Positions 3,505-10,400 of a DNA stretch of 64,000 bases are shown here, piece by piece; position 1 is the stretch's first letter; the number at the start of each line of letters is the position of its first letter. The position numbers and the translations under genes are program-made. The stretch is taken from the NCBI GenBank assembly GCA_016931225.1, contig JAFGFE010000005.1:62001-126000 (forward strand). The letters are read 5' to 3'. This DNA comes from Candidatus Zymogenaceae bacterium (GTDB lineage Bacteria > Desulfobacterota > Zymogenia > Zymogenales > Zymogenaceae). The notes beneath the pieces are model-generated. The model ran no database searches and was not told the DNA's origin. It was given only the letters and a program-made list of their open reading frames with translations.

Positions 3505-4203
3505 TCACGGCAGGAAAAACAGCGGGTCCCGGTGCTCGCCGTCGTACAATATTTCAAAATGGCAGTGGGGGCCGGTGCAGCGGCCGGTACAACCCACCTC
3601 ACCGATCACCTCCCCCTCGCGAACCCGATTCCCCTCAACCACGTAGGTGTCTCTGAGGTGCGCATACACCGTTGAATAGTGATCGTCGTGTTTGATTTCA
3701 ATCATGATACCGTATCCGCCGCGCCTGCCCACAAACACCACATCCCCATTCCTTGCCGCGGCGACCGGTGTCCCGCTGGAGGCCGAGATATCGATGCCGG
3801 TATGCATTCGCCCCCAGCGCGGACCATACACGGAATAGATCATCCCCTCCACCGGCCAGGCAAACAGACCCGATTTCAACTTCTCGGCCAGTTCCTCGGG
3901 TGACAACGGGGGTATCTCGAGGATCTTTTTTGCGCCGGGGATGAACAGGACGTCTCCACTCTCCAGGTCGTCGGGATTATAGAGTCGATTGACCTCGGCG
4001 ACGATTCCGGGATCCACTTCGTAGGTCGTCGTAATACGCCAGAGATCCTCCCCCGGCAGAACGGTGTGATAGATCCCCTTCGTGGACGGCATCATGAATG
4101 ACGACATCGTAACGCATCCCCCGGCCCCCCAAAAGAGGAAAACGACGAATATCGTTAGTATCAGTCGCGCGATTCGGAAGAGAGGCGTATCTGAAAAGAA
4201 CAT
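3505..4203 (-). CDS. LysM and M23 (LytM-type) peptidase lipoprotein
   Basis: A cell-wall-associated protein of the NlpD/EnvC type. The N-terminus has a hydrophobic signal with lipobox GAGGC, so it is probably an envelope lipoprotein. A LysM domain follows (about residues 45-92, VLPGEDLWRIT ... VNRLYNPDDLESGDVLFIP), expected to bind peptidoglycan. The C-terminal M23 domain has zinc-ligand motifs HTGID and GPHCHFE, so it may be catalytically active rather than a degenerate amidase activator. It lies 42 bp downstream of the FAD oxidoreductase stop on the same strand, so it may share that operon, although its job looks unrelated. Confidence 0.88.
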   Translation of the reverse strand: MFFSDTPLFRIARLILTIFVVFLFWGAGGCVTMSSFMMPSTKGIYHTVLPGEDLWRITTTYEVDPGIVAEVNRLYNPDDLESGDVLFIPGAKKILEIPPLSPEELAEKLKSGLFAWPVEGMIYSVYGPRWGRMHTGIDISASSGTPVAAARNGDVVFVGRRGGYGIMIEIKHDDHYSTVYAHLRDTYVVEGNRVREGEVIGEVGCTGRCTGPHCHFEILYDGEHRDPLFFLP

Positions 4204-4245: not shown

Positions 4246-5580
4246 CTACTCAAGCCTGGCTCCATCGGCGATCAGCTCCGATCGCAGCTCTTGGGTATCT
4301 ACATCGATAAGAGAACTCTTTTTCCGTATGGCACACCCCGCGGCCGCGGCGGCGGCCTGGCCCTCCGCCATGCAGGGGCCCATCACCCGGGACGAGGCCA
4401 GGGCGTCGTGATCGGTGGAAATGGCCCGCCCGGTCACCAGCAGGTTGGAGACGCCCTTGGGCAGCATGCACCGATAGGGGATGCCGTAATAGGACCCTTC
4501 GTCGAGGAAGACAAGCCGAGGCTCCAACGCCCCCTCATCCCACAGCTCCAGGGGCCAGGACGACAGACACACGGCGTCGTCGAACTGCCTGCCGGAAAGC
4601 ACATCGTCACGGGACAATACGTATTCGCCGACGATGCGCCGGGTCTCCCGTATCCCGACCTGCACTGCGGTATCGGAAAGAAAGGCGCCGGCGAAACCCG
4701 GGACCTCGTTTTTGAGAAACTCCATGGCGGCTTCAGCCCCCTCACGGCCCGAAAGCTCAGCCAGGGTGATATCGGCGACAACGCTCCCATCCAGAGCCCT
4801 CCCCTCGCACGTGAGGGAGCTCATCTTCACCATCGCCTCACCGGGGCGAAAGGTCGGGATCACCAGCCCCTGCCCGACGGTGAGGGGATAGGTCCCCTCA
4901 TCCAGGGCCTTTTGAATACGCTCGTTCAATACGGCCATCCCCTCCTGCTGATAGGCGACGATATCCATCCCCTGGCAGAAGAACATCATCGTGGGGGTCA
5001 TGACTTTTCCGTTTTCGTCCCCTTTAACGGTTTCCGCGCCGCACGCCAGGGCAACCACCGCGTCGCCTGTAGCGTCCACAAAGACCTTCCCCCTCACTGC
5101 AAACAGCCCCTCGGGGCTCGCCACAATAACAGCCGTCATCGCGCCGCCCTCAATCACCACGTCCGCCACCCGGCTGTGCAGCATGAGGGTAATGCGCTCA
5201 TCTCCCTTCACCATCCTGTCGAGAAGCCTCTTTACGTGCCAGGGGTTATAGAGCAGCGCCGTAAATCCCTCGCGGATAAAGGGGCCGAAGGCGCCGCCCG
5301 CAGTAACCAGGGCGTCGGTCACCTCTTTTGCAAATCCCTCGATGATATGCTGTATCCTTTCCGGATGGTACAGATACAATCCGCAGACGGTTCCCACCGC
5401 CCCGGCGGTGGCCATGCCGCCCAAAAAGCCGTAGCGCTCGATCAGCACCACGGAGAGTCCCTTTCTGGCGGCGCAAACCGCGGCCGCAAAGCCGGAGGGG
5501 CCGCCGCCGACCACCACCACATCAGCTCCGGCCCGCACCGGGATGTCCTTCTTCGGATAGGATACGGTCTCTTTCATCAT
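4246..5580 (-). CDS. FAD-dependent oxidoreductase
   Basis: A 444-residue flavoprotein with an N-terminal dinucleotide-binding motif (VVVVGGGPSGFAAAVCAAR, about residues 20-38), the ERYGFLGG continuation and VFVDATGDA near residue 165, matching the FAD_oxidored type of the GidA/FAD-dependent superfamily. The C-terminal region contains GRAISTDHDALASSRVMG, which closes the FAD site in this family. The substrate cannot be read from sequence. ATGATG at the start follows GGGGGATTC. It begins 10 bp after the AstE-like gene stop, and both follow a P-loop protein, so the three probably act in one pathway, perhaps on an amino acid derivative (inference). Confidence 0.83.
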   Translation of the reverse strand: MMKETVSYPKKDIPVRAGADVVVVGGGPSGFAAAVCAARKGLSVVLIERYGFLGGMATAGAVGTVCGLYLYHPERIQHIIEGFAKEVTDALVTAGGAFGPFIREGFTALLYNPWHVKRLLDRMVKGDERITLMLHSRVADVVIEGGAMTAVIVASPEGLFAVRGKVFVDATGDAVVALACGAETVKGDENGKVMTPTMMFFCQGMDIVAYQQEGMAVLNERIQKALDEGTYPLTVGQGLVIPTFRPGEAMVKMSSLTCEGRALDGSVVADITLAELSGREGAEAAMEFLKNEVPGFAGAFLSDTAVQVGIRETRRIVGEYVLSRDDVLSGRQFDDAVCLSSWPLELWDEGALEPRLVFLDEGSYYGIPYRCMLPKGVSNLLVTGRAISTDHDALASSRVMGPCMAEGQAAAAAAGCAIRKKSSLIDVDTQELRSELIADGARLE

Positions 5581-5590
5581 GAATCCCCCG

Positions 5591-6637
5591 TCATTTATCC
5601 ATCTGACGCATCAGCCTTTGCAGGTAGGTATTGGGGCTGTATGTCGTATTGGGAAGCTTCGGAGTCTGTTTCAGGTGCCTGGTCGGATCGCTGCTGTCGA
5701 AATCCACCAGCATGCAGAGCCGCGTACCGGAGCGGACGATGGGCTGGTGGGTCATGCCGGTAACGATGCCGGGGAACGGCGCGATGAGGTCGTGGGTTTC
5801 GAAACTTGTAGGATCGATGATATCCCCGATATTGTCGCCCACGCGGACGAACTGCCCGAGGTGAATGGCCGGTTTGAAGATGCCCCCGATGGGGCTTCGC
5901 ACCCAGGACTCGTTTGAGGCCAGGATGATCTGATGATCCGGCACAATCGCCTCTCCCTCGATCATTCCCAACACATGCATGACATTCATCACGGCACCTG
6001 TGCCGATATCCACGTTTCTGTCGGTGATAATCCCCGCCGCCCCGATCTCGATGGTGCTGGTGGGGATCTTCTCCCGATACGCCTCGGTCTGGAGCATCCC
6101 CTTCAGCGACGGTCCCACCCACACGGCGTTGATACCGGTGGACGCCACAAGGTTCAGATACTTCTTGGAGGGATTCTCCACCCTGATGCGGATATGAGGA
6201 ATCAACTCATCGGGGAATTCCGCCGAATGGAGATCGAGGATGTAATCCGCGCTTTTGACGAAAATGGAGAAAAAGCGGTGGGCGATCCGCTCGGTCATGG
6301 TGCCGTCAGGATCACCGGGGAAGACCCTGTTCATATCAAGGTTGTCGTATGGATCCCACCGATGACCGGAATTGAACGCCATTGGATTGACGATGGGCAC
6401 GGCGAGGAGATTTCCCTTGAGCGTGCCCGGGTCGATTTGATCGACGATGGTACGCAGCACCTCCACGCCCACCACCTCGTTGCCGTGAACCGCCGCGTTT
6501 AAAAGGAGGGTTGGTCCGTCGTACGCGCCCCACAGACCGAAATAGTGAAGGGCGATCATCTGACGGTTGGCGTTTTCGGCGATGGTGATCGATCCCGTCA
6601 CCTTTTCGCCCCGGATATATTTCAACTGTTCGAACAT
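5591..6637 (-). CDS. Succinylglutamate desuccinylase/aspartoacylase (AstE/AspA) family deacylase
   Basis: A zinc-dependent hydrolase of the M14-like AstE/AspA family, which releases acyl groups from N-acyl amino acids. Visible motifs are AAVHGNEVVG (zinc ligands His51 and Glu54), NRVFPG (about 103-108) and ILDLHS (His137). A C-terminal beta-rich domain ends in GIVTGMTHQPIV, as usual for the family. I chose ATG 6637, preceded by GAAGGA, because longer in-frame starts would read far back into the upstream gene. It overlaps the upstream P-loop gene by 16 bp, which indicates tight coupling. Substrate not determinable; an N-acyl amino acid is the family expectation. Confidence 0.83.
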   Translation of the reverse strand: MFEQLKYIRGEKVTGSITIAENANRQMIALHYFGLWGAYDGPTLLLNAAVHGNEVVGVEVLRTIVDQIDPGTLKGNLLAVPIVNPMAFNSGHRWDPYDNLDMNRVFPGDPDGTMTERIAHRFFSIFVKSADYILDLHSAEFPDELIPHIRIRVENPSKKYLNLVASTGINAVWVGPSLKGMLQTEAYREKIPTSTIEIGAAGIITDRNVDIGTGAVMNVMHVLGMIEGEAIVPDHQIILASNESWVRSPIGGIFKPAIHLGQFVRVGDNIGDIIDPTSFETHDLIAPFPGIVTGMTHQPIVRSGTRLCMLVDFDSSDPTRHLKQTPKLPNTTYSPNTYLQRLMRQMDK

Positions 6638-7662
6638 GAGGGAAACCGTTCCTTCGCCATACGTATAAAACGATGTTTTGATTGAGGGCGATTTTCCAAA
6701 AGCGGCGTCACGATGCGCCGCTTGAGCTCCCGAACGCATAACGGCCGGGAAATAATGATACCGGAGATAAAATCCGGGACGACGCCGTGGGCATCCTTCA
6801 GGTATGTATACATTCCGTAGGCCGCCATGCTGTCGGACGCCGCACCGATGATCATCTGTATCCGACTCCTAATCACCGGAGACGACAACACCGCCTCCGT
6901 CTCCGGCTGGAATACGCCGTCGGCCACTTCCAACACCATCATATCGGCGCCCTGATCCTCCAGATACGTCATGAGGACCGTGAATATTCGCTCAAGATCG
7001 TCGGTGGTCGCGCCGTAGGTGGAGGGATACCCGGCATCCAGAAAATCACACACCGCAACCGCTCCCGCCCGCCGCATGCGGTAGATATCCTTCATGCGGG
7101 ATGTACCGGTCAGCTTCGCCCCCCCCACTCGGAATCCGGCCTCAAAAAGCAGCTCGATGGCCAGGGAGGCAAGGGTCGTCTTTCCTGAATCCATGGCGGA
7201 GCCGATGACCAGCATCACATCGAGGCGGCTGTTTTCCCGGGGCGTGAGCGCCCCGGTGAAGGTGGAGAGTCCCCGACCGGCCTCGTCCACCGCACGCCCG
7301 AGGTACCTGAGAGTGGTCGGATTGGTGAGAGTGCTGGTGACCCTCTTGACATGACCCGCCACCCCCCCCACGTTCAAGAGGTGCAGTTCGTCACCCTCGA
7401 CGAGGACGCGGGGAATGTCTCCGTCGAACTCGCTGGTGGCGTACCGGCGGCCCAGAACCACAGCCGCGGTCTCCCCGGGAGAGATCGGATGCTCCACCCC
7501 GCTGGCAAGCTCGATGACCTGGTGAAACCCCAGGCTCTCCACCCGGGCGATAACCACATCACCCGGGGCGGGTGCAAAGCGCTGTGTCGGGTCTGTCTCC
7601 TGCAATGATTGAACGCCCGCCCGACGGGTCGCGGAACTTGCCACATCCACCTGAATTTTCAT
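6622..7662 (-). CDS. P-loop protein related to DUF1611, with an N-terminal beta-rich domain
   Basis: A 346-residue protein. Residues 1-140 form a beta-rich domain (PGDVVIARVESLG, SPGETAAVVLGRRYA, LLNVGGVAGHV). The C-terminal half carries a Walker A-type loop GSAMDSGKTT (about 154-163) followed by GGAKLTGT, DFLDAGYPST and VLEVADGV. That order resembles DUF1611/CobB-MobB-type P-loop proteins. A DUF1611 member (DgcN) has been described as a D-glutamate N-acetyltransferase, so an acyl-transfer or ligase role is possible, but this is inference. It is the first gene of the operon with the deacylase and FAD oxidoreductase. No Shine-Dalgarno is visible; the promoter places the transcript start almost on this ATG. 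ATG 7671 is an alternative start. Confidence 0.72.
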   Translation of the reverse strand: MKIQVDVASSATRRAGVQSLQETDPTQRFAPAPGDVVIARVESLGFHQVIELASGVEHPISPGETAAVVLGRRYATSEFDGDIPRVLVEGDELHLLNVGGVAGHVKRVTSTLTNPTTLRYLGRAVDEAGRGLSTFTGALTPRENSRLDVMLVIGSAMDSGKTTLASLAIELLFEAGFRVGGAKLTGTSRMKDIYRMRRAGAVAVCDFLDAGYPSTYGATTDDLERIFTVLMTYLEDQGADMMVLEVADGVFQPETEAVLSSPVIRSRIQMIIGAASDSMAAYGMYTYLKDAHGVVPDFISGIIISRPLCVRELKRRIVTPLLENRPQSKHRFIRMAKERFPSCSNS

Positions 7663-8078
7663 AGCACGCATACTAATACAAAAATAATGACATTGCAAGC
7701 GCCACGGCGGGGGTCGTGTATGCGGCGTGAGAATACGTCCTGAACAAAGACCGGAGCGTCGTTGCGGTCATATCCGGGCGGGGATCGGTCACCGTCGGGC
7801 ATGGGATATAAAAAAGGACCCTCAAGGCGCTTACCCTGCATGCGACATCCAGATACCGCGATCCCAAATTTACCTTCCCCGCCCGCCTGTCATGTTCACA
7901 ATGAGTTTCCCCTGCACTTTCCCGATCACACTTTCGGCCTGTTCCTTCACACACTGAAAAACCAATGAATCGAATTTGCTCCTCGGATGCACGTTAAAAA
8001 TCCCTTTTTTTTATACAGTTTTTGCATTATAATCTCACAGCGAAACATAAGAGACACGTCATAAAAGGAGTCGGTCTC
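7663..8078. other. Intergenic region between divergent operons
   Basis: About 416 bp without a supported gene. It holds the minus-strand promoter at 7670-7698 and, near 8028-8033, a plus-strand TATAAT without a convincing -35 that may serve the Gfo/Idh/MocA gene. The middle (about 7720-7980) shows no motif or open frame I would defend. Confidence 0.6.
7670..7698 (-). promoter_or_regulatory. Promoter of the P-loop/deacylase/FAD operon (possibly leaderless)
   Basis: Minus strand: -35 TTGCAA (7693-7698), 17-bp spacer, -10 TAGTAT (7670-7675). The expected start site is about 7662-7664, on or next to the ATG at 7662, which would make a leaderless mRNA. Confidence 0.5.
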
Positions 8079-9143
8079 ATGGATAAAATACGAGCGGCGA
8101 TCGTCGGATGCGGGAGGATCAGCGATCTGCATGCTGCGGCGTACACGGGGAGTGACAGTGCCGAAATATTCGCCGTATGCGACATCAACAAGGACACAGC
8201 GAAACAAAAGAAGGAGGCATGGGGGGCAAAAAAAGTATACACCGATTACGAGAAGCTCCTCGCGGATGCGGATATCGATATGGTGGAGCTTCTCACCCCG
8301 CATCATCTGCATATGCCGATGACCGTTGCCGCCGCTCAGGCGAAAAAGCACATCAGCTGTCAGAAGCCGATGGCCACAAAGGCTTCGGACGCGCAGAAAA
8401 TGGTGGACGCGGCGAAAGAGGAGGGGGTGCTCTTGAAGATATTCGAGAACTTCGTCTTCTATCCCCCCTACGTCAAGGCGCGACAGCTCCTCCTTGACGG
8501 GGCCATCGGCGACCTCATCACGGTCAGGATGCGCATGACCTGCTCAATGAGCGGCGGCTGGGACGTGCCCCGGGAGGCCTGGCAATGGCGCATAGACGAG
8601 GTCAAGGGCGGAGGGGGCACCCAGGTGTTCGACGACGGGTACCACAAATTTTCCCTGGCCTACAATATCGGGGGCGAGGTCGAGAAGGTCTACGCCTGGA
8701 TCGACAGGACCATGGAGGTGGTGGACGCCCCCGCGTTTGTGATGTGGAAGTACAAGGAGGGCGCCCGGGCGCGCTACGGACAGTACGACCTCACGTTCGC
8801 CCCGAACCTCTACATTCACTCGGATTACTACGCCGCCGACGACCGTATGGAGCTGGTGGGTACCGAGGGAATCATATACGTCAACCGCACCACGGCAAAT
8901 CCCCTGGAGGAGCCGCCGGTGGTGCTGCTTCGGGACGGTGAAACCAGGAGCTTTCACAACCTCAGGGACAACTGGATCGATTCTTTTATCGACAGCGGCC
9001 GTCACTTCTTCACCTGCATTCAAGAAGGTAAGAAACCGATTCTCTCGGGGGAGGACGGCCTCAAGGTCCTTCAATTCACGATGTCCGCCGAGATATCGAA
9101 CAGGGAAAAGCGGGAGGTATCCCCGGATACGGTGGTCGATTGA
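8079..9143 (+). CDS. Gfo/Idh/MocA family NAD(P)-dependent oxidoreductase
   Basis: A 354-residue sugar or cyclitol dehydrogenase-type protein. The N-terminal Rossmann fold begins IRAAIVGCGRISDLHAAAY, and VCDINKDTAKQK follows at the adenosine-binding strand. The segment SCQKPMATKA corresponds to the EKP motif region of the family, here with QKP in place of EKP. The C-terminal alpha/beta domain includes GGGGTQVFDDGYHKFSLAY, where the usual catalytic histidine pattern D-x-x-x-H is present. ATG 8079 is chosen because AAAAGGAG stands 7 bp upstream. Substrate unknown; it is divergent from the P-loop operon. Confidence 0.88.
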   Translation: MDKIRAAIVGCGRISDLHAAAYTGSDSAEIFAVCDINKDTAKQKKEAWGAKKVYTDYEKLLADADIDMVELLTPHHLHMPMTVAAAQAKKHISCQKPMATKASDAQKMVDAAKEEGVLLKIFENFVFYPPYVKARQLLLDGAIGDLITVRMRMTCSMSGGWDVPREAWQWRIDEVKGGGGTQVFDDGYHKFSLAYNIGGEVEKVYAWIDRTMEVVDAPAFVMWKYKEGARARYGQYDLTFAPNLYIHSDYYAADDRMELVGTEGIIYVNRTTANPLEEPPVVLLRDGETRSFHNLRDNWIDSFIDSGRHFFTCIQEGKKPILSGEDGLKVLQFTMSAEISNREKREVSPDTVVD

Positions 9144-9335: not shown

Positions 9336-10400
9336 ATGCGGGAAATCGAAGTGGGAATGGTAAAAATACCCGAGCAGGAGCGGGATAACGAGGCCCTGTT
9401 GAAGACAAAGCTGTCCGAGCTTATCGAGATATCAGGAGGCCTGGATTTTATCCAACCGAAGGAATCGGTGCTCATCAAGATCGCCATGAACTCACCCCGA
9501 CCCTATCCCGCCACCGTTGATCCAATGGTCGTCTCGTACCTGTTGGATGCCGTCGTTTCCAAGAAGCCGTCATCCGTGTACATCGCGGATAAATCAAACC
9601 TATATAGAAACACCAAAAAGGTTTTCGACAAGACTGGATTGACGCCGGTCGTCAAGAAGGCCTCCCTCTTTCATGTGACGACACGCATCAAGCTCTTGGA
9701 TTTCGACGATTTCGTCTACCGTGATCGCTACCTGCCCGACGATTTCAAGGAGAACTGGGAGATCAATCCGGGAAGACACTTCATCCGCGCCCCCAAGATG
9801 CTGTTCGAGGACGATCCCTTCCTCAAGAATATGAACCTGGCGCCGAAGGTGGATCATATCATCGTCCTGGGTACGGTCAGAACCCATGTCCTATCACGTT
9901 TTGCCCTGGGAATGAACAGCTATACCGGTTTTCTCGACACCGAAAGCAGGTGTCTCTTGTATAAAAAACCATACAAAAAGAACCTGCGTCTGAAGAGTAT
10001 CTCACCCGTGAACAAAGAGAACATCCAGCGGAGGATACCGGAGCTCTTCACCGTTATTCCTCATCCCAAGTTGATCATCCTCGACGGCAGGGAATCCATG
10101 ATTACCGGCGGCCCGGACTCCAACGGCCCGATCCAGCTGCTTCCGTCCATCAAGAAGAATCCCTATACCGGCATCATGATTGCGGGCAGGGACATCGTGG
10201 CCACGGACGCCGCCGGGGTGGCGCTTCTGAAATCCCACAGGCGGGCGGCATCGAGCATACGGAATACCCCGATCTGGGAAATGCCCACGTTTATCCGGGC
10301 GGAGGAGTTGGGCCTGGGCGCGACCCGGGAGGACAAGATCATCCTCCACGCCGATATAGAAGACGACCTGTTTACGCAAATGGCGTGGTTCCTCCAGTAG
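9336..10400 (+). CDS. DUF362 domain protein
   Basis: A 354-residue protein of the DUF362 type, common in anaerobes and of unknown biochemical function. Family-like segments are ESVLIKIAMNSPRPYPATVDPMV near residue 47, VYIADKSN, and near the C-terminus IMIAGRDIVATDAAGVALL. Unlike many relatives it has no 4Fe-4S ferredoxin domain; only two cysteines or fewer are scattered and no CxxCxxC motif occurs. GAGAGGA precedes the start. It leads a short plus-strand run with a CvpA-type membrane protein 46 bp downstream, but no functional link is evident. Confidence 0.78.
   Translation: MREIEVGMVKIPEQERDNEALLKTKLSELIEISGGLDFIQPKESVLIKIAMNSPRPYPATVDPMVVSYLLDAVVSKKPSSVYIADKSNLYRNTKKVFDKTGLTPVVKKASLFHVTTRIKLLDFDDFVYRDRYLPDDFKENWEINPGRHFIRAPKMLFEDDPFLKNMNLAPKVDHIIVLGTVRTHVLSRFALGMNSYTGFLDTESRCLLYKKPYKKNLRLKSISPVNKENIQRRIPELFTVIPHPKLIILDGRESMITGGPDSNGPIQLLPSIKKNPYTGIMIAGRDIVATDAAGVALLKSHRRAASSIRNTPIWEMPTFIRAEELGLGATREDKIILHADIEDDLFTQMAWFLQ

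Follow-up and report, generated by a model that had tools for sequence, protein, structure and literature searches.

A P-loop protein gene beside an AstE-type deacylase and a flavin oxidoreductase in Zymogenaceae: one route or two gene pairs?

Whether three tightly spaced genes encode successive steps of one pathway is the question raised by an operon of a Candidatus Zymogenaceae bacterium (Desulfobacterota; GenBank assembly GCA_016931225.1). The genes lie in a stretch of 64,000 nucleotides of contig JAFGFE010000005.1 (positions 62,001 to 126,000 of the forward strand), hereafter the window, and encode a P-loop protein, a deacylase of the AstE type and an oxidoreductase dependent on flavin adenine dinucleotide (FAD). 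An initial annotation had described them as coupled by a 16-bp overlap and a 10-bp gap, and translation confirmed these coordinates, the P-loop and AstE genes overlapping at 6622-6637 and the AstE and FAD genes being separated by 5581-5590. It had also suggested a coupled route in which an amino acid is acylated, oxidized and deacylated. Our tentative answer is that the operon represents not an obligate trio but two overlapping conserved pairs, in which a BioD-like ATP-dependent ligase would stand beside an amide hydrolase.

Distribution of the three genes

A genome scan with the P-loop protein returned 313 relatives, and the neighbourhoods of the best 80 were read together with that of the window, giving 81 places, five of which had less than 1,200 bp downstream. 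Most assemblies are metagenome-derived, and neighbourhood genes were called mechanically as open reading frames (ORFs), several of them over-long at the 5′ end. An AstE gene of the window's clade adjoined the P-loop gene in five of the 81 places, and a sixth such pair was found in genome G426. The FAD gene stood beside the P-loop gene, completing the trio, in two places: the window and a locus (L006) from another Zymogenaceae genus, which share gene order well beyond the trio. The initial annotation had taken conservation of the trio across genomes as a test of its route; among the 81 places and the further loci read, no trio turned up outside the Zymogenaceae, a result that largely goes against the route.

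The window's own phylum (395 genomes) gave a similar picture. A profile of 45 P-loop family members found the family in nine genomes at E≤1e-20, and of these nine loci (1.5 kb either side; stretches of about 4-5 kb were seen here, as around L008 and L021 below) only the two from Zymogenaceae held an AstE gene. The AstE clade itself occurred in four genomes, all Zymogenaceae (E 1.2e-153 or lower), five further genomes carrying distant AstE-type proteins (∼1e-55 to 1e-60). The two remaining Zymogenaceae genomes belong to a sister genus (G002, 99% complete; G003, 88%), and here the FAD gene (67-68%) comes straight after AstE (71 and 60% identity, respectively), whose other flank holds a divergent Gfo/Idh gene (68-70%) with no P-loop gene between. 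Neither genome held a match to the window P-loop protein at E≤1e-3 or to the 45-member profile at E≤1e-20, nor was a remnant seen at the locus. The AstE–FAD pair was therefore present in four of four Zymogenaceae genomes examined.

The converse arrangement, a P-loop gene followed by AstE with no FAD gene in the stretch seen, was found at L007 (genome G396; 17 kb), L008 (G397; 4.1 kb), in G426 (12 kb) and at the archaeal locus L021 (G398; 4.6 kb), so that the P-loop–AstE pair spans two bacterial phyla and one archaeon. Genome-wide searches at E≤1e-20 detected no FAD relative in G396, G397 or G398; in G426 they returned one (37% identity), on another contig. P-loop and AstE genes are thus paired in six genomes and AstE and FAD genes in four, the two sets overlapping in only two genomes. 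Because AstE and FAD genes occur together without the P-loop gene, and P-loop and AstE genes without the FAD gene, an obligate acylate-oxidize-deacylate route is not supported.

The AstE clade was sparse elsewhere: at E≤1e-90 it was detected in three of nine genomes of the small phylum to which G396, G397 and G426 belong and in one of 23 of the G398 phylum (G398 itself), and at E≤1e-80 in none of 321 genomes of the G399 phylum and none of 314 of the G400 phylum. Of the genomes with P-loop relatives outside the pair, G400, G401 and G402 gave no AstE match at E≤1e-20, and the AstE of G399 is distant (6.8e-36) and has no P-loop gene beside it.

These distributions bear on whether the P-loop gene is simply a passenger beside AstE and FAD genes with whose pathway it has nothing to do. 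It is missing from the sister genus, and most P-loop loci have other neighbours or no recognized partner, both of which would be expected of a passenger. We nevertheless consider this unlikely, since the P-loop–AstE order is kept across the two bacterial phyla and the archaeon although the P-loop proteins are only 42-47% (bacterial) or ∼37% (archaeal) identical to that of the window, and since the P-loop and AstE frames overlap in the window, L006, L021 and G426. Phylogeny also argues against it. In a quick tree of 49 P-loop sequences, with Shimodaira–Hasegawa-like approximate likelihood ratio test (SH-aLRT) support, the P-loop proteins of the window, L006, L007, L008 and G426 (L105) formed one clade (SH-aLRT 100), with the archaeal L021 protein nearby in no settled position and those linked to ATP-binding cassette (ABC) exporters elsewhere. 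The label 'AstE-linked', carried by six rows, required one change on this tree against a mean of 5.5 when shuffled, and none of 500 shuffles was as low, a result to which near relatives contribute. The paired AstE proteins are 70% (L006), 56% (L007), 55% (L008), 47% (L021) and 56% (L105) identical to that of the window.

Several of the pair loci carry further genes. A phosphorylase gene (PF01048, PNP_UDP_1) follows the P-loop and AstE genes at L007 and L008, in G426 (L117) a phosphoenolpyruvate (PEP) carboxykinase gene follows AstE with the phosphorylase further on, and a Maf gene lies upstream of the P-loop gene at L007 and in G426. The AstE ORF at L007 starts ∼270 bp after the P-loop gene, and an AstE match in the same genome (L100, G396:C147:31628-32665) has one TAG inside the matched frame; the G396 AstE possibly has a broken or re-started 5′ end.

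Fold and kinship of the P-loop protein

The initial annotation had called the P-loop protein DUF1611-like, with an unusual beta-rich N-terminus. An AlphaFold model built on an alignment of 45 relatives (mean predicted local distance difference test score (pLDDT) 96.8) divides it into a beta-rich N-terminal domain with one short helix (residues ∼1-145) and a P-loop domain (∼146-346) with a Walker A motif GSAMDSGK (154-161), K183-x-TG and E245-x-A-DG. The description of the N-terminus was borne out: modelled alone the domain is again beta-rich (pLDDT 93.4). Foldseek gave it no match at E≤0.001, the lowest E being 0.35, and the highest VIA-align Z among 993 chains was 2.8. It is thus without a structural match at the search sensitivity used, a result from which a new fold does not follow. 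Two of its residues, H47 and E51, are nearly invariant in the 45-member alignment.

For the P-loop domain, VIA-align gave tied scores to CTP synthase (7mip_C, Z 16.3, root-mean-square deviation (rmsd) 3.4 over 192 residues), the DUF1611 protein TM0796 (2g0t_B, Z 15.9, rmsd 3.6, 175 residues) and dethiobiotin synthetase (3of5_A, Z 15.7, rmsd 3.1, 180 residues), with Ffh and HypB next (Z ∼14; HypB ∼13.8). When the whole model was searched with Foldseek, the top match was dethiobiotin synthetase (E 3.7e-6; TM-score 0.36, normalized by query length), with GTPases of the signal recognition particle (SRP) and HypB close behind; 2g0t was not among the 50 matches listed. The C-terminal domain is accordingly predicted by the model to have the fold of dethiobiotin synthetase, CTP synthase and DUF1611.

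The family profile adds a weak alignment (E 0.017) in which the Walker A and K-x-TG motifs coincide with those of Mycobacterium tuberculosis BioD (3fgn), and the bioD model TIGR00347 aligns residues 235-272, including E245, at 14.5 bits against a cut-off of 83.3. BioD has a Mg-binding glutamate, and from this weak alignment E245 may be its counterpart. The protein thus resembles BioD and the amidoligase domain of CTP synthase in fold (Z ∼14-16), and BioD in the Walker A and K-x-TG motifs, but differs in falling far below the bioD cut-off and in its additional beta-rich domain of ∼145 residues.

Membership of DUF1611 is a different matter from fold. The window protein had no PF07755 match at E up to 1. 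With E up to 0.1 allowed, PF07755 gave weak matches to 31 of the 45 relatives (lowest E 4.5e-5), the window protein not among them; MobB matched 28 of the 45, and its lowest E (1.7e-9) was better. For comparison, ten DUF1611 proteins were fetched from a phylum with strong matches to the Pfam model, their ORFs being picked by a TGQT or EGQG motif (each of the ten PF07755 loci yielded one), and eight of them, archaeal, were aligned. The TGQTG and EGQ motifs were invariant in these eight; the window protein instead has KLTGTS and EVADG. A profile–profile comparison of the P-loop family with the eight produced a single local match of 110 columns, ending with the Walker A region, at a probability of 2.9% (E 0.016), which is not significant. 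The P-loop protein therefore fails as a true DUF1611 member by score and by motif. Because the comparison profile consisted of eight archaeal sequences, chosen partly by motif, it leaves room for a distant kinship, and we see the relation to DUF1611 as one of shared fold and remote superfamily, which is the part of the earlier label that stands. NCBI labels on plasmid relatives are as mixed, two being annotated 'DUF1611 domain-containing', one 'dethiobiotin synthase' and others 'hypothetical'.

DUF1611 presumably includes DgcN, a D-glutamate N-acetyltransferase, and in the route first envisaged a DgcN-like P-loop protein would N-acetylate an amino acid, the FAD enzyme would oxidize the N-acyl amino acid and AstE would deacylate the product. 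The three enzyme classes are indeed present and adjacent, the domain has the fold of 2g0t, and NCBI places two plasmid relatives in DUF1611. All the same we regard this route as very improbable, given the missing PF07755 match and signature motifs, the insignificant profile comparison, a beta-rich N-terminal domain, and the persistence both of AstE and FAD genes without the P-loop gene and of P-loop and AstE genes without the FAD gene. Among the literature matches listed, the titles and abstract openings contained no report supporting DgcN activity or a DUF1611 function, and no literature on Zymogenia was found.

A third possibility follows from the Pfam searches, in which the P-loop protein cleared no cut-off and came closest to MobB (PF03205; 24.9 bits against 26.6). 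It could be an accessory NTPase of the MobB or HypB type, serving AstE as a metallochaperone by loading its metal site or shielding it, and not a pathway enzyme. AstE is presumably a zinc enzyme, ZnuA and FUR-family genes with homologues at L006 lie a few kb away, the near-invariant H47 and E51 could suit such a role, and HypB is among the structural matches. It is nonetheless a rather improbable explanation, because the AstE of G002 and G003 manages without a P-loop protein, most P-loop relatives have no adjoining AstE of the window's clade and no cysteine occurs in the invariant or nearly invariant columns of the 45-member alignment.

Chemistry of AstE, the FAD enzyme and the proposed ligase

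The identification of the second gene product as an AstE-type deacylase was upheld. It matches PF24827 (AstE_AspA_cat) at 119.8 bits against a cut-off of 25 (E 1.4e-34), and its catalytic motifs HGNE (51-54), NR (103-104), DLH (H137) and E197 are intact and align with those of the DoeB structure 6twl. HGNE, NR, the histidine of DLH or DFH and the glutamate of EIG are kept in eight of eight homologues aligned, two of which lack a P-loop neighbour. The nearest solved structures are 2qj8, 3cdx and 6twl. The protein shares its domain and catalytic motifs with DoeB (N-acetyl-L-2,4-diaminobutyrate deacetylase) and AstE (succinylglutamate desuccinylase), but lies far under the equivalog cut-offs of both and has a stretch SAEFPDE (SAEYPEV in the archaeon) after the zinc histidine. 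An identity as a cyanophycin dipeptidase of the CphZ type, such as 8ein, was considered and rejected: 8ein matched residues 245-294 only (4.1e-5) and five structures of the DoeB group scored 4.1e-22 or better.

The third product is, as annotated, a flavin oxidoreductase, matching PF12831 (FAD_oxidored) over 416 of 416 profile positions (360.8 bits against a cut-off of 27; E 1.6e-107) with an N-terminal dinucleotide motif GGGPSG. The three further Zymogenaceae genomes carry it at 65-68% identity, one copy being cut by a contig end. Although the family match is full length, no solved structure matched beyond the nucleotide-binding segment, and the 20 plasmid relatives listed are only 32-37% identical. 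Outside the family, a search of 326 genomes at E≤1e-70 returned a single match, in G092 (43%), in high-GC DNA whose neighbouring genes cannot be called reliably by simple ORF picking, and of the plasmid relatives the two whose neighbourhoods were opened (Polaromonas and Indioceanicola) adjoin ilvD-type dehydratase genes. These neighbourhoods were uninformative as to substrate.

What we infer for the locus concerns nucleotide use, ligase chemistry, a shared metabolite, the AstE metal and the role of the FAD enzyme. With ATP and Mg, the P-loop protein would activate groups on a small molecule resembling an amino acid and couple them, acting as a ligase that forms an amide or a carbamate and not as an acetyl-CoA transferase. 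AstE would cleave the amide bond in that compound or in one related to it, and the FAD enzyme may oxidize the free product or its precursor. The genus that lacks the P-loop gene would obtain the N-acyl substrate from elsewhere, and AstE and the FAD enzyme would then be the core of the system in Zymogenaceae, with the P-loop protein as an optional entry step.

A number of observations weigh against the ligase–hydrolase pairing. The P-loop relatives lack an adjoining AstE of the window's clade in 76 of the 81 places, and many have no recognized partner gene at all. The fold is common to non-ligases such as Ffh and HypB (Z ∼14), so that 'ligase' goes beyond what the fold determines, and the profile search that aligned BioD placed the SRP receptor (E 0.014) and MobB (E 0.017) level with it. 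AstE scored 104.3 bits against the DoeB equivalog cut-off of 402.7 (TIGR02994) and 34.6 bits against the succinylglutamate desuccinylase cut-off of 305.65 (TIGR03242), and its sister enzymes act on differing acyl amino acids. The AstE–FAD pair is in turn weakened as evidence of shared function because it is confined to one family with long shared synteny.

The locus is an ordinary-looking operon that holds one under-described protein family, of which the P-loop–AstE pair and the partner-specific branches described below are most worth following. The pair is the smallest testable unit, one enzyme perhaps joining what the other cleaves, and the sister genus with AstE and FAD genes and no P-loop gene provides a natural control.

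Wider P-loop family and anatomy of the operon

Beyond the AstE-linked clade, P-loop relatives keep other company. In 29 of the 81 places a same-strand ABC exporter ORF lay directly downstream (among them L009, L010, L011, L037, L047 and L072; two members were checked with Pfam), and a transporter also stands beside a relative on a Paracoccus and a Sulfitobacter plasmid. This is a second conserved module of the family. An ORF resembling an alpha/beta hydrolase occurred within 2.5 kb in 16 places, 12 of them among the 29 with an exporter, the label resting on appearance, with two members lacking a Pfam match at 1e-5. A DksA/TraR-type ORF was directly upstream in ten places (one member checked), and in five, genes for a pyruvoyl arginine decarboxylase and a member of the arginase family lay within 2.5 kb. 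These five loci (L018, L027, L081, L082 and L085; planctomycete, Phycisphaerae, Sedimentisphaerales) all have the upstream DksA/TraR-type ORF. ORFs like D-Ala-D-Ala ligase were found in the neighbourhood of five loci (two members checked), and an Asparaginase_2 gene near L030 and L060. On a Priestia megaterium plasmid (L142; NZ_CP085446.1, 83738-94520) a relative 27% identical to the window protein has as neighbours PEP mutase, a carbamoyltransferase, an M20 peptidase, an oxidoreductase annotated as flavin-dependent and two ATP-grasp proteins whose C-termini are of the L-amino-acid-ligase type. The cluster resembles one for a phosphonate peptide, and the position of the relative in the tree is unsure because of its long branch.

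Such contexts would fit amide or peptide chemistry better than catabolism dependent on acetyl-CoA. They are consistent with a broader proposal, more doubtful than the pairing in the operon itself, that the P-loop proteins form an unnamed family of ATP-dependent small-molecule ligases with a beta-rich N-terminal domain, spread over many bacterial phyla and some archaea and divided into branches by partner: AstE in one, an ABC exporter in another, at times joined by an alpha/beta hydrolase, and in others no partner, or ATP-grasp ligases and arginine decarboxylase nearby. The ligase and amidase of the window would then build and cleave the same conjugate. If the family does consist of ligases, a chemistry open to test could be assigned to proteins that are widespread, and the product class of each branch might be guessed from its partner genes.

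The genes of the operon and its surroundings are collected below.

Coordinates of the operon and neighbouring genes in the window
Gene	Positions	Strand	Product and evidence
P-loop protein	6622..7662	minus	346 aa; ATG at 7662, stop at 6622 (translation)
AstE/AspA-type deacylase	5591..6637	minus	348 aa; ATG at 6637, stop at 5591 (translation, PF24827)
FAD-dependent oxidoreductase	4246..5580	minus	444 aa (translation, PF12831)
LysM + M23 peptidase	3505..4203	minus	PF01551 4.3e-32, PF01476 9.8e-7
Gfo/Idh/MocA oxidoreductase	8079..9143	plus, divergent	PF01408 8.1e-27; ORF 8022-9143, start ATG 8079
DUF362	9336-10400	plus	adjoins Gfo/Idh gene
ZnuA	391-1410	minus	PF01297 5.5e-69
FUR-family regulator	1410-1826	minus	PF01475 2.8e-10

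Alternative upstream starts exist for the P-loop ORF (TTG at 7698) and for AstE (in-frame ATG at 6739), and the starts in the table were preferred because the aligned homologues fit these positions. All three frames are conserved at L006 (P-loop 47%, AstE 70% and FAD 64-65% identity to the window) and are therefore genes and not chance frames. Their spacing suggests a single transcription unit. A promoter and terminator scan found 5 against 3.4 expected, and 9 against 6.3. The LysM/M23 gene, which begins 42 bp downstream of the FAD gene, is possibly the last member of the unit. Its product has an N-terminus resembling a lipoprotein signal, and homologues occupy the same place at L006 (58%) and in G002 (L115; 70%), the contig of G003 ending within the FAD gene.

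On the opposite side a Gfo/Idh/MocA homologue adjoins the operon in four of four Zymogenaceae genomes (68-71% identity at L006, L115 and L116), and DUF362 homologues (54-59%) follow in the same order at these three loci. The ZnuA and FUR-family genes sit downstream of the operon and bring a zinc-uptake gene near the presumed zinc enzyme AstE.

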